From: Spiroplasma diminutum CUAS-1
GTDB lineage: Bacteria > Bacillota_I > Bacilli_A > Mycoplasmatales > Mycoplasmataceae
DNA length: 64,000 bases
Reading direction: 5' to 3'
Assembly (NCBI RefSeq): GCF_000439455.1
Contig: NC_021833.1
Span: forward strand, 124,001 to 188,000
In this document: one piece after another, positions 24,719 through 33,085 of the stretch
How positions within the stretch are numbered: position 1 is the first letter of the stretch
Layout of the letters: each line of letters starts with the position of its first letter
Position numbers and translations under genes: made by a program
Notes under the pieces: generated by a model
Databases searched by the model: none
What the model saw: only the letters and a program-made list of their open reading frames with translations
Told to the model about the DNA's origin: nothing

Positions 24719-25718
24719 TTTAGATAATCAAAAAGACATTATTGAAATTCAAAATAATGTTGAAGTTGAAAAAGAATTAGACGATATTGAAGATATTGAA
24801 TCTGAAGGAATGGAAATAGAAATAGAAATACCAAAAATCAAATTAAAAGATAAAGTAGCAGATTTTAAAATAGTAAAAGGATTTAGAGGAAAAGTTTGAC
24901 CTATATTGCTACCATTTATGGTAGTAATGGGATTTTTAGTTGTACTTCCATTATTGGGAATTGTTATATTCTCAATTGTTGAAGCAACTGGAAATAGTAT
25001 AAAGTTTAAATTAGACTTTTCAAACTTTGTGAAACTATTAACATCAGGATCAATTCTGTATGTATTATTTTTATCTTTACTTTATGCATTTGTTGCAAGC
25101 ATCATTTGTGTTGCTTGTGCATATCCAATTGCCTTAATAATGGCACAATTAAAAAATAAGCTTTTAGCTAAAAACGTATGAGTTTTAGTTACTTTGCCAA
25201 TATGAATAAGTATGATTTTAAAAATACTTGGATTAAGAAGTTTATTTTTAGTTATCTCACCAACAATTTTAGGAACACCAATTGCAGTTATAATTGGGAT
25301 GGTTTATATGTTTTTACCATTTGCAATTTCTCCAATTTATAATGCAATTGAAAATCAAGATAGAAACTATTATTTAGCTGCACTTGATTTAAAAGCAAGT
25401 AAGTCAAAAGCATTTTGACATACAACATTTAGACAATCACTTCCAGGAATATTTGCAGGATTTACATTAGTTTTAATTCAAGCTGCAACATCATTATTGA
25501 TTGTTAGATATATGGGTGATGGAAAAATAAACTTAATAACAACAATTATTGAAAATTACTTCTTTAGAGGTACAGACTTCACTTTTGGAGCAACAATTGC
25601 CATTGTTTTGGCATTACTTTTATTTGCAATTATGGGAATTATGAAATTAATTTCAAATAAATTTGAAGTAAGGGGGTCAAAAAAATGAAAAAATTCATCA
25701 AATCAAGTTATTTCTTAA
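24711..25718 (+). CDS. potB: Spermidine/putrescine ABC transporter permease PotB
   Basis: This membrane subunit forms one half of the polyamine channel. It has 335 residues with a long acidic N-terminal extension of about 60 residues (rich in Glu, Asp, Ile), then six predicted spans and the EAA loop near residue 220 (AALDLKASKSKAFWHTTFRQSLPGI). The TGA at 25686 is Trp, so the protein continues to TAA at 25716 and overlaps potC by 34 bases, more than is usual in this operon. Confidence 0.92.
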
Positions 25719-28700
25719 TAATGATGTTATTCATTTATGCACCAATTGCTGTAATGATTACATTTTCATTTAACTCTGGAAATAGTGTAAGTAGTTGAAG
25801 TGGATTTAGTCTTTCATGATACAGTTCACTTATAAAAAACTCACCATTTATGAAATCAATTACAGTTTCTTTATTTGTAGCTATGGTATCTACTTTAATA
25901 TCATTGCTAATTGGAATGATGGCTGTTGTTGGTTTGACAAAAATTAGAAAAAGAAGTGCTGATAACTGAGTTAGAATTGCAAATATACCATTAGTAAATG
26001 CAGATGTTATTACAGCTGTTGGACTAATGTTATTGTTTGTATTAGCTGGTCTAAAGTTTGGAATTATAACTTTAATAGCAGCACACGTTTCTTTTAACGT
26101 GCCTTATGTAATTATTACAGTACTACCATTTATGAACAGAATTGATAAAAATATATTAGAAGCATCAAAAGATCTTGGAGGAAATCAAAGACAAACTTTC
26201 TATAAAGTAGTTCTTCCAATATTAACTCCATGTATTATTACTGCTGCTGCAATATGTTTTGCAATGAGTTTTGATGATTTTATTATTTCCTATTTTACTG
26301 GTGGAGGACAAACTAACGTATCTACTTTTATATATACTGCAAAAAGAATGCAACCATATATAAATGCTTTCGGTACATTATTAGTAGCTTCTATTATATT
26401 TATAGTTTTAATTTGAAATATAATTCAAATTTCTTTACAAAGATCAAAAGAAATTAAACATCAAATTAAAAAAGGTGAATACAAAATTAAATTAATAAGT
26501 AAAATTGAAAATGAAATTAAATATTTACAAAGTTGTTTATCAACTGGAACAAGAACACAAAAAACAAAAAACTTAAAATTACTTGTTCAATATAAAATGT
26601 TAAGATTACAAATTAGATTATTAAATAATAAAGATAATAATAAAAAAATAAGTAAACTTGAATGAAAAAAAGAACTAATTTCATCAGAAATTAGAGTTGA
26701 AAAAAGATACTTTACAATATTTAAAAAATTGAACATTAAAAAATCTCAAATTGAATTAAAAATTGAAAAAATGACAAGTGAGAAAAAAATTAAAAAATTT
26801 GAGCAAGTTTTACATAAATTGGATAGAAAAATTAATAAATATGAAAAAGAAATTGAATGAATTAATGAAAGAAATGAACACGATAAAGAAAGATCTTTAG
26901 AAATTGGACAACAAGTAATTAATTTAAAAGAAGAACTTTCTGGATTAGAAAATCCAAGTGCAAAAGATATTTCTTGATACAACAAAAGGATTAAAACTCT
27001 TTCTATAAAAAGAGACAGTTTACTTGAAGGAAGAAACCAATATAAATTAAGAATGACTATTGAAAAACTTGCTTTAATTAAAAAAGAAACTGAAGAAAAA
27101 ACAAGAGCTAAATATGAACAATTAAATACAATGAAAGCAAAAGTATTTAGAAAAGTTTCATTAGTAGACTCAATTGATAAACAAATTTCTTTATTAGATA
27201 AAAACCAAGCAAACTATAATGAAAAGCTTTTTGATCTAAAAAAATTAAGAGATGAAAAATTAAAAGAAGCAACAGATTCTATTAATTCAAAATTATCTAA
27301 CAAAGAAGAAAAATTAAATAAAGTTAACAGCTATGTAAAATCTAAAAAGGATAAATATTTCCCTGATGTTTTAGAAGAAACATATGTTCCTAAGTCAAAT
27401 AGATGAATTAAAAGAAACTGAAAACAACTTACAATGGGAACAGCACTTTTAACATCATTTTCATTATTAACAACTGCTTATATAATGAACAATATTTATG
27501 ATTTAGTTGTTGGAAATTGAGGAAGTTATATTGATCCAGAATTAATAACAGAATTTGAAAAGGAAACTGGATATAAAGTAAACTATCAACAGTATGATTC
27601 AAATGAATCTTTATACAATAAATCATATACTTTTAACTATGATATTATGGTTCCAAGTGATTATATGGTTGAAAAATTTGCAACAGAAGGGGCTTTACAG
27701 AGAATTGACTGATGTAGAGTTGAGAATATTAAAAGTCCAATAGAAGTTGATTGCCCTTCACCTGAAAAATTAATTTATCAGGAAAATGAATATGAATTGA
27801 CTTACAATGAAGCAATTGAAGAAGCTCATAGATTACACAAATTCACAGATGCAGAAGGTGATGAAGCTAATCTATTAAATTACTCAATTCCATGATTATG
27901 GGGAGATGTAAGAATTGTTTTCAATATTGGTGAAATGAAAAATGATAAATTTGTTGAAAATAAAGAATTAATAGATTTTTTAAACCAACATGAAGGATTA
28001 TTAGAGCCTATTGAAAACAATGATAATGAATTTTATAAAATTAAGCAAGATAAATTATCATGAAATATTCTTTGAGAAGCCGCAGAAAAAGGATTTAATT
28101 TGGCATTAAATGAAGATCCTAAAAATGTATTTATGTATGGTTTTGAAAAATTATATGGAAATGTTGAAGCAGTTGAAGGATTACAAGTAGATGGTAAGAC
28201 ATTATCAAAACAACAACAAATAGATAATGTATCAGCTGAAATTAAAAATTTAGTAAGCAAAAGAAATGTCGGTTTATATGGAGACCAGTTACTAGATAAA
28301 GTTCATGAAAGAGACTTTGATATTGCTGTTATGTATAATGGAGATTTAATTTATGCTACTCAAGATGATTATGAAAGTGAAGTTGAAACTGAAGATAGTT
28401 TATTTAAAATAAGTGATGAATTAAACACCATTAATAATTTTAAATTCACAACTTTATCTGCAGTTCCAAGAGCAAAACTTGCAAATAGTACAGAAGATAA
28501 ATCCGAATCAACAAACTTATGAAGTGATAATTTAGTTATTTCAAGTATGAATAGACATTTAGATGCAACGTATGCATTTATAAACTTTATGTATAGTAGA
28601 GAATCTCAAGAAGCACTTGTTGATGAAACAGGTATGCCAACAGGGTTTCAAGAAATACTAGATTATGGAACAGAAAAGGGAGATGAATGAGCTAAATGAT

Positions 28701-28795
28701 TTATACCAGAAAAAGGTAATTCATTCAGCTTTGATGAAAAGTTTGATAATTATTTAGTTGATAAATTTAATCAAATTATTTCAACAAAACACTAA
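25685..28795 (+). CDS. potC: PotC-coiled-coil-PotD fusion: polyamine permease joined to its binding protein
   Basis: The 1036-residue protein begins with a PotC permease (residues 1 to about 250, six spans, EAA loop EASKDLGGNQRQTFYKVVLP). A highly charged Lys/Glu-rich region follows (about 255-575), predicted to be long coiled coil. A further membrane span (about 584-604) leads to a PotD-like substrate-binding domain to the end (NWGSYIDPELITEFEKETGYKVNYQQYDSNE...). The layout tethers the binding domain outside the cell, which replaces the free periplasmic protein. Fusions of PotC and PotD are known in mollicutes; the coiled coil would lie in the cytoplasm and has no known job. The ATG at 25685 has an AAGGGGG site. 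Confidence 0.9.
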
Positions 28796-30227: not shown

Positions 30228-30233
30228 TATAAT
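30228..30233 (+). promoter_or_regulatory. -10 box of the mgtA leader transcript
   Basis: A TATAAT lies about 27 bases before the leader ORF and just after the tRNA terminator; the -35 box is not clear. Transcription should begin near 30240, at the edge of the attenuator structure. Confidence 0.5.
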
Positions 30234-30248
30234 AAAAAGAGTGAAAAG

Positions 30249-30364
30249 AGGTGGTAAATATGAGTATTCCTTCCGTCGAGCAGTTATACAATTTAATTAA
30301 TAAAAATGCGGTAAGAAGTATTGCTAATTTACCACCTATTTTTGTATTATCAAAATAGGTTTTT
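30249..30364 (+). promoter_or_regulatory. Two mutually exclusive hairpins in the mgtA leader (attenuator)
   Basis: AGGTGGTAAAT (30249-30259), which contains the leader ribosome binding site, is perfectly complementary to ATTTACCACCT (30327-30337). The second arm overlaps by four bases a terminator hairpin ACCTATTTT/AAAATAGGT (30334-30342 and 30352-30360) followed by five T. Only one of the two can fully form. The leader ORF runs through both. This is the expected architecture of a translation-coupled transcription attenuator. Confidence 0.65.
30260..30358 (+). CDS. Candidate leader peptide of mgtA (32 aa)
   Basis: The ORF begins MSIPSVEQLYN after a strong AGAGGTGG site and ends in TAG inside the 3' arm of a terminator hairpin. 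It contains Pro at residue 4 and a Leu-Pro-Pro run at 24-26, whose codons (30329-30337) form the overlap of the two competing hairpins. It precedes a Mg2+ ATPase gene by 39 bases. Enterobacterial mgtA also has a Pro-containing leader (mgtL) whose translation falters at low Mg2+. The shared logic is striking; a homologous origin is not claimed. Confidence 0.6.
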   Translation: MSIPSVEQLYNLINKNAVRSIANLPPIFVLSK

Positions 30365-30397
30365 AAGTTAGCTTTCATAAATAAGGAGAACGATGTT

Positions 30398-33085
30398 ATG
30401 AAAACTAAGAAAAAAATAAATAATAATTATAATAATCAAATCGCTGAGTTTGTAAAATTAGATCAAACTCAAACATTAAAAAAATTAGAAGTTTCAAATT
30501 TTGGATTATCTGAAACTGAAGTTAAAAATCAAAAAGAAAAATTTGGAGACAACTCATTAAAAGAAAAAAAATTTAATTATGTACTCTCTTTTATAAAATC
30601 ATTTTTTAGTCCATTTAATTTAATATTAATAATAATTGATACATTTAGTTTTTATCAATATACAAGTGCAGAAACTAGGGAACCATCAGACTTAGTAGGA
30701 GCATTATTAGTTTTAACAATGATTATAATAAGTGGAACAATTTATTTTGTTCAGGAAATAAGAGCATTTAATGTTATTAAGAAAATGACTTATGAAAATA
30801 AACAAACATCAAAAGTAATTAGAGATGTAGACTTTAAAGTTAAAGATATTGATAATGCAAATTCAATTAAACTTATTAAAGAAAACGATCAAATTGAAAA
30901 CTCACAGTTAGTACCTGGAGATTTAATTTATGTTTCTAATGGAGACTTAATTCCAGCTGATGTAAAAGTTATTTGATCAAATAATTTATATTTGAATCAA
31001 TCATCTTTAACAGGAGAATCATTTCCTGTTCAAAAGAAAATTACTAATGCAAGAGAAAGTTATTTAGAATATGAAAACATTTGTTACATGGGAACAGAAG
31101 TTGTATCTGGTTCAGCACTATGTATAGTAATTCAAACTGGAGAAAAAACTTACTTTTCTGCAATAAATGATAAAGTCACAGAAAAAAGGGGAAAAAACTC
31201 TTTCGAAAAAGGTATTTGAAAAATAACAATGTTATTAATATCATTTATGTTAGCAGTAACACCAATTGTTTTTTTAGTATTTGGTTTAAGACCAGGAGAA
31301 CTTGATGATAAATGATTTGCAGCAGCAATGTTTGCAATTTCAATTGCAGTTGGATTAACTCCAGAAATGTTGCCAGTAATTGTTACTGCAAATCTTTCAA
31401 GAGGATATTCAAAGATTAAAAAAGAAAATGTAATAGTTAAAAATTTAAATGCTGTTCAAAATATGGGAGCTATTGATATCTTATGTACAGATAAAACTGG
31501 AACAATTACAAGTGGTGAAATTAATTTAGACCATGTATTTGATATAAAAGGTCAAAAAAATGAAATGATTGAACATGTTTTATATTTAAACAGTTATTTC
31601 CAAACTGGATTCCAAAATCCAATTGATCAAGCCGTACTATTGAGTAAAAAAATAAGTACACCAAATTTAGATGAATATTCAAAAGAATGAGAAGTTCCAT
31701 TTGACTTCCAAAGAAAAATTCTTTCAGTAATATTAACTAAAAATGGAGAAAAAGAAATTTTTACAAAAGGTGCTATTGAAGAAGTATTAAAAGTATGTAA
31801 CCGTATTTATATTAATGGAGAAATAGTAAAACTTACTCAAGATCATATTGATAAAATTATTAAAAAATCTGATGATTATAATAATGACGGATTTAGAGTA
31901 ATAGGAATTGCTCACAATCATTTAGAAGATGAAGATATAGAACAAGATTTAATTTTTTATGGTTTTGGAACTTTCTTTGATGAGCCAAAGAAAACTTCAA
32001 AAAAAATAATAAAAGAATTAGCTCAAAAAGGAATTTCAACTAAAGTTTTAACTGGGGATAATGAAGTTATTACAAGATCTATTTGTTCAAAAGTAGATTT
32101 TAAAATTGAAAAACTATATTCTGGAAAAGAAATTGAAGTAATGACTGAAGAGCAATTACATAAAGCTGTAAAAAGAGGAAATGTATTTGTTAAATTAAGC
32201 CCAATTCATAAATCAATAATTATCAGAGCCTTAAAAGAACAAGGACACGTTGTTGGATTTATGGGTGATGGAATAAATGATGCACCAGTATTAAGAGAAG
32301 CAGATGTTGCTATATCATTTGATGAAGCATCAAATATAGCAAAAGAAGCAGCAGATATTATTTTAATGGAAGAATCATTACTTCCAATTAGTCACGCTGT
32401 TCATGAAGGAAGAGTATCTTTGGCAAATATATTAAAATATATTAAAGTAACTATTGCTTCTAACTTTGGAAATGTTTTAAGTGTTCTTGTTGCCTTGTTC
32501 TTAACTATGGCAGAGCCAATGCAACCATTGCACTTACTAACTCAAAACTTACTTTATGATATAGTAATGTTTGCTTTCATCTTTGATAAAGTTGATAGCA
32601 AGTTTACCGATAAACCAAGACCATTAAGAACAAAAAATATTATATGGTTTACTATAATTAATGGTCCAGTGAGTTCTATATTTGATATTGCAACATTTTT
32701 AGTTCTATTATATGGATATAAAACTGTACAACCAGGAATAACTGGTGGTGGAGATATAGGAAATATTGCTCAATTCAATGGTAGTTGATTTGTTGTTGGT
32801 TTAATGACACAAACTGCAGTTATGCAAATGTATAGAACTGAAAAAATTCCATTTATTCAATCAAATGGATCATGACAAGTTACAAGTTCAACAATATTTG
32901 TCTGTTCAATGGCAGTAATAGTTCCCTATGGGTTTATGAGTATTCCTGAAATTAGTGAAGGAATGAAAATGGCAAGACCTGAATGAAGTTTCTTACCAAT
33001 TGCTTTGGGATTTGTTGTAGCTTATATGTTTTTAGCTCAGGCTGTAAAAATGTTGTATATTAAAATATTTAAAGAGTGATTATAA
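30398..33085 (+). CDS. mgtA: Magnesium-transporting P-type ATPase MgtA
   Basis: This 895-residue P3B-type ATPase imports Mg2+ down its gradient under Mg2+ limitation. Family-specific motifs are present: AVGLTPEMLPVIVTANLSRGY in the M4 region and FDFQRKILSV in the N domain. The phosphorylated Asp is residue 365 in CTDKTGTIT, and the hinge is GFMGDGINDAPVL. The ATG at 30398 is chosen because AAGGAG lies 10 bases upstream; an ATG five bases earlier is out of frame. Regulation by the upstream leader ORF and attenuator is likely. Confidence 0.93.

Follow-up and report, generated by a model that had tools for sequence, protein, structure and literature searches.

A leader ORF in front of the Mg2+ transporter gene mgtA

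The region upstream of mgtA in Spiroplasma diminutum CUAS-1 raises the question of how Mg2+ uptake can be controlled in the absence of Rho and, for this family, also of an M-box; the literature searched offered no proposed mechanism. The locus was analyzed within a window, i.e., the whole stretch of 64,000 nucleotides from positions 124,001 to 188,000 of contig NC_021833.1, and all coordinates refer to this window. The following elements form the framework of the locus:

30228-30233, + strand: presumed promoter, a -10-like TATAAT named from its sequence, 3' of the tRNA-Ile terminator
30260-30358, + strand: leader ORF of 32 codons, from ATG at 30260 to TAG ending at 30358 (MSIPSVEQLYNLINKNAVRSIANLPPIFVLSK)
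30398-33085, + strand: mgtA, Mg2+-translocating P-type ATPase of 895 amino acids (genetic code 4; TIGR01524)

The promoter region was alignable with that of relatives in a DNA search, and the transcript of the mgtA leader would start at about position 30240. The downstream gene had been named as an Mg2+ ATPase in a preliminary description of this DNA, which was made from its letters, and this naming is borne out by a score of 848 bits against the equivalog TIGR01524 (cut-off of 611). The same description had reported a 32-codon ORF whose Shine-Dalgarno (SD) region is complementary to a site near its own end. This pairing is indeed perfect over 11 bases (30249-30259, AGGTGGTAAAT, with 30327-30337, ATTTACCACCT), and it extends further than was described, given that codons 1-6 pair also with 30308-30322. 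The position of the Leu-Pro-Pro codons was read directly and agrees as well (codons 24-26, TTA CCA CCT at 30329-30337). At the other end of the ORF, codons 4-6 are CCT TCC GTC, and the peptide begins with MSIPSVEQ. The whole leader folds with -26.7 kcal/mol (z of -2.8), and 2 of 200 shuffled sequences folded as well.

The leader stop is separated from the mgtA start by 39 bases in the window, and the two ORFs share a frame. Read-through of the leader stop into mgtA was rejected as a candidate, because the corresponding ORFs of one relative (G006) are out of frame. Two ATG codons in different frames are present at the mgtA start (ACGATGTTATGAAA, 30393-30400), an arrangement that is conserved in most close relatives. 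Elsewhere in the window (25685-28795), a 1036-residue ORF resembles a fusion of a PotC-like polyamine ABC permease and a PotD-like binding protein, as named by reading the sequence.

Conservation of the leader across the family

A search with the 32-residue leader peptide gave matches before mgtA in eight other genomes of the same genus. DNA and mgtA-protein searches were followed by reading of the upstream regions. Of the 60 family genomes, 49 proved to have an SD-preceded leader ORF ahead of mgtA, among them every one of the 20 from the genus; no leader was recognized at the mgtA copies examined in the other 11 genomes. The peptide start MSIPS is found in most of the genus and in three other genera. 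Further leaders begin, e.g., with MSPLS, MASSPLP, MATSPLP, or MLGQQEQSG, and several of them contain Asp/Glu-x-Pro-Glu-Ser stretches. The leader SD, the start, and the early codons are among the best-conserved parts of the element.

A strict-pattern scan of named genomes yielded 14 matches, one of them in Spiroplasma sp. TIUS-1 and the others in unrelated organisms. No second gene with the same leader was found in the genome, in which the pattern AGGTGRTA-N0-6-ATG-N9-TCC occurs once. In genus g8, four genomes (G072, G026, G034, and G073; loci L111, L118, L119, and L122) carry mgtA paralogues, one copy with an MLGQQEQSG/MLVQQEQSG leader and another without a recognized leader.

Four segments with alternative pairings

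Many orthologous leaders were read, and they have in common a series of alternative pairings, A:X, X:Y, and Y:Z. Segment X is found towards the 3' end of the leader ORF, Y in the interval that separates the leader stop from the mgtA SD, and Z corresponds to the ribosome binding site (RBS) and start of mgtA. The segments of the focal genome are as follows:

30249-30278, + strand: segment A (1), leader SD and codons 1-6, partner of X/A'
30308-30337, + strand: segment X and A' (2), with 30308-30322 pairing with codons 1-6, 30327-30337 with the leader SD, and 30323-30331 with Y
30364-30380, + strand: segment Y (3), with TAAGTTAGC as partner of X and TTAGCTTTCATAA as partner of Z
30383-30408, + strand: segment Z (4), with the mgtA SD AAGGAG (30383-30388) in a loop and the start region TTATGAAAACTAA (30396-30408)

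RNAduplex energies of the three pairings were compared with those of dinucleotide shuffles (p<=0.05) in 31 representatives, which as species are not independent of each other. A:X surpassed the shuffles in 29 of them (mean z of -4.3) and X:Y in 22 (mean z of -3.3), while Y:Z did so in 10 and is statistically weak (mean z of -1.4). In a cross-species test, each species' segment was combined with the following segment taken from other species, in 5000 permutations. The cognate means were -22.1 versus -15.1 kcal/mol for A:X, -15.6 versus -8.4 kcal/mol for X:Y, and -9.5 versus -7.4 kcal/mol for Y:Z, and for each pairing 0 of 5000 permutations reached the cognate value. Examples of cognate X and Y partners are AGTGCTAATTT with AAATTAGCGCT (G004), ACTGATTTATCA with TGATAAATTGGT (G036), and GGGAGTGC with GCACTCTC (G018).

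Covariation in related genomes had been put forward as a check on the complementarity. Among eight close aligned sequences, the lower A:X helix keeps 87 of 87 countable pairs, and all eight substituted cells preserve the pairing. Sequence comparison and folding show A:X and X:Y to be conserved helices, and the architecture of the switch is well supported by comparison. In the focal genome, X:Y displaces mainly the outer part of Y:Z, and the probability of the Y:Z core stays at 0.92.

Ribosome position and accessibility of the mgtA RBS

The effect of a ribosome on these pairings was calculated with the ribosome modeled as a hard block, leaving kinetics and cotranscriptional folding aside. In this model, an initiating ribosome on the leader lowers the opening energy of the mgtA RBS in 27 of 32 species, and the mean gain at initiation is 3.4 kcal/mol, versus -0.6 kcal/mol if the sequence separating A from Z is shuffled. 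With codons 1-8 in the P site, the mean gains are 3.4, 3.6, 3.8, 3.6, 3.1, 2.3, 1.4, and 0.6 kcal/mol, respectively, and they are about zero at later positions. A second ribosome queued ten codons behind the first is predicted to create a second opening window at codons 11-13. For the focal RBS, the opening energy decreases from 9.3 kcal/mol without a ribosome to 6.2 kcal/mol at initiation and to 4.1-4.5 kcal/mol at codons 2-4. Little or no opening effect was calculated for four genomes (G004, G005, G032, and G082).

The preliminary description had located the decisive event at the opposite end of the leader. It proposed that ribosomes slowed at Pro25-Pro26 under low Mg2+ block a terminator and thereby allow transcription of mgtA. 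The putative terminator is the following stem:

30335-30359, + strand: stem T (-7.3 kcal/mol), CCTATTTT at 30335-30342 with AAAATAGG at 30352-30359, followed by TTTTT at 30360-30364

Several observations agree with this proposal. Codons and stem are located as described, the stem is about as stable as the tRNA-Ile terminator (-7.5 kcal/mol), and a ribosome at codons 22-32 abolishes stem T in the model. However, the stem has only five U and was not called as a terminator by a consensus scan. Its pairs are kept in six of eight close aligned sequences (with a double change in G008 and a mismatch in G013), and it is largely gone in G001, G003, G009, and G004. The U-run comprises four to five residues or, as in G008, is broken. 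The stem occurs in close relatives only and is not conserved as a terminator. Nor is the proposed stall site conserved: the leader end reads LPP in only 4 of 20 genomes of the genus and LPL, LPS, LSL, or otherwise in the remainder; in close relatives with LPL, LPS, or LSL, the pairing is retained through G-U wobbles.

A slow ribosome at Pro25/Pro26 would furthermore leave mgtA locked, given an opening energy of 8.6-8.7 kcal/mol there, compared with 9.3 kcal/mol for the ribosome-free RNA; the RBS opens only for positions at the start and at codons 2-4. Stem T has a probability of 0.77 in the modeled nascent RNA if a ribosome occupies the leader start and of 0.01 if none is present, and A:X alone already precludes it, with no ribosome needed. 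Since the stem forms together with a start-bound ribosome, its sign as a terminator would oppose that of the RBS switch. The combination of a Pro-Pro stall and a terminator was accordingly rejected as a general mechanism, as neither recurs and the RBS stays closed, and the proposal as it was made for this locus has very little probability. We prefer to regard stem T, on the basis of the model, as a likely apical extension of the X:Y stem that supports the switch; it is possibly a weak terminator.

Early codons and tRNA supply

Codon usage, which was drawn from the window and the mgtA genes, points to an unusual composition of the leader start. The codon UCC is found between codons 2 and 15 in 28 of 31 leaders and accounts for 31 of 434 early leader codons, versus 14 of 26902 codons in the mgtA genes of 30 genomes, which corresponds to a 132-fold enrichment over mgtA usage. 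Among the later leader codons, UCC occurs once in 476. The early Pro codons are CCT, CCG, or CCC and not the usual CCA. The genome gave 29 tRNA matches, with tRNA-Ser(UGA) as the sole reader of UCN and tRNA-Pro(UGG) as the sole reader of CCN. UCC must hence be decoded by superwobble, of which a tRNA-Ser(UGA) is capable according to work on plastids (PMC3499367).

The occurrence of UCC was also counted by frame: frame 0 holds 31 cases, frame 2 holds 25, most of them NNT-CCN ahead of Pro, and frame 1 holds 0, so that conservation of the codon and of an RNA motif is not cleanly separated. In several species the UCC codon is partly base-paired, and RNA pairing may thus account for some of its conservation. 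In G072 and G082, UCC lies outside the predicted windows. In view of the base pairing and the ambiguous frame distribution, we infer rather than observe that these codons are slow. A more specific idea is that Mg2+ is sensed by decoding itself, such that superwobble reading of start-proximal codons (UCC, but also GUC/GCC/CUC/CCC and non-CCA Pro codons) by the single U34 tRNAs available in these reduced genomes would be slowed at low Mg2+ and the paused ribosome would open mgtA. We regard it as unlikely, and no other case is known to us in which superwobble codons act in cis-regulation to sense an ion.

Proposed switch and alternative explanations

The mgtA leader is, in our judgment, probably a four-segment translational attenuator of the trp/erm type, in which slow early elongation of the leader would turn mgtA on, presumably at low Mg2+. 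If no ribosome is present at the leader start, or if the ribosome has moved past about codon 8, A:X and Y:Z would pair and keep the RBS and start of mgtA closed. A ribosome that is at the leader start or whose P site holds one of codons 1-6 would cover A, X:Y would pair, and the mgtA RBS would be freed. Low Mg2+ as the presumable signal would slow or abort elongation over the first codons. The slow stretch might be P4-S5(UCC)-V/A6 in S. diminutum and, in other genera, Pro/acidic stretches such as DSPES or EPEPGE, most of which include UCC, and ribosomes may dwell or keep reloading at the leader start without running through X. In leaders with a slow stretch at codons 12-14, the start would be occupied by a queued second ribosome.

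The connection to Mg2+ is drawn from mgtA itself, from the precedent of mgtL, in which inefficient leader elongation at low Mg2+ raises mgtA (PMC11552253, PMC11282234), and from the M-box that precedes mgtA in a different family of the order but is absent here. This distribution suggests that the M-box and the leader switch substitute for each other as Mg2+ devices between families.

The calculated opening is also compatible with a switch that needs no stall, in which mgtA opening tracks leader initiation and reports ribosome supply or the melting of A:X at low Mg2+ instead of slow codons. An initiating ribosome alone yields nearly full opening, and the leader SD itself is sequestered in A:X. 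Nevertheless, we consider this rather unlikely, because the conserved MSIPS/UCC and Pro/acidic stretches would be left unexplained and because low Mg2+ should lower initiation, upon which mgtA would close. An RNA that senses Mg2+ directly, with the ORF being of minor importance, would be in line with the strong conserved structure and with the M-box that a different family carries at this position. It is nonetheless improbable: apart from the helices no conserved aptamer-like core was seen, and the leader SD, start, and early codons are highly conserved. A search of the window against Rfam returned tRNAs only, and the M-box RF00380 was absent from 60 of 60 genomes of the family; a known riboswitch was rejected on these grounds.

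The leader could finally serve ordinary translational coupling and merely help ribosomes to reach mgtA without any regulation. The short distance between leader stop and mgtA start would suit this explanation, as would the proposal that leader ORFs raise downstream translation (PMC4833913). Yet it predicts neither covarying, competing A:X, X:Y, and Y:Z pairings nor a position-dependent opening of the RBS, and it is very improbable.

Comparison with known systems

An M-box (RF00380, 109-134 bits) is located directly upstream of mgtA at loci L169, L170, L173, and L175 (G086, G098, G090, and G058) in another family of the order. The ykoK-type M-box thus shares gene and position with the leader of S. 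diminutum, which differs in the lack of a match to the model and in a proposed mechanism that requires leader translation. Unrelated short uORFs precede mgtA at L167, L177, L179, L182, and L185 (G040, G147, G158, G112, and G042) in other families. Their peptides (MTDSDSIYNN, MDPWSCLFNLK, MDLWSCIYIL, MKKPDGERSY, and MEVQSSDRSW) are accompanied by SD or RBS complementarities with a different switch logic; that of A-X-Y-Z was seen partly in G040 and G112, not in G147, G158, and G042, and clearly in none of them.

An attenuator with an intrinsic terminator is characterized by a conserved hairpin with a U-run, which does not apply to stem T. The trp-type attenuators share with the proposed switch the logic of 1:2, 2:3, and 3:4 pairings that is set by the position of the ribosome, whereas here segment 4 is an RBS instead of a terminator and a run of codons for a single amino acid is missing. 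The erm/cat type (ermC class) is similar in that a leader ribosome held early frees the downstream RBS via alternative hairpins, which are predicted in the present case, with Y:Z as the weaker one. The differences are that no drug is involved, the signal presumably being Mg2+, and that the leader SD itself is part of segment 1.

As in mgtL, a short ORF precedes an Mg2+ ATPase gene of the same kind, the RNA has two alternative structures, control is proposed to depend on how efficiently the leader is translated, and leaders of several genera contain proline and acidic residues. In contrast, mgtL acts by Rho-dependent termination, and the predicted output here is the release of the mgtA RBS. The genome search for Rho gave only weak matches below the cut-off, which we take to be ATPase paralogues, and as Rho was not found, a mechanism of the mgtL type would be unavailable. 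Peptide and RNA sequences are also unlike those of mgtL, and the N-terminal Pro/acidic motif of the EPDP type is absent from the focal peptide MSIPSVEQ, with DSPES and EPEPGE found in other genera only. Of the preliminary interpretation, the leader ORF, which is conserved, the mutually exclusive pairings, and an mgtL-like role of leader translation are supported; this role would have evolved apart from the Rho-dependent system of enterobacteria, in line with the subthreshold Rho matches and the absence of the M-box. The element is family-wide, has no Rfam match, and implies a simple mgtA switch whose bases can be tested, and its natural sequence variants make the sensing of low Mg2+ by ribosomes accessible to experiments. 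If the proposed switch is true, the leader would represent an mgtL counterpart that arose by convergence and has the initiation of translation as its output.
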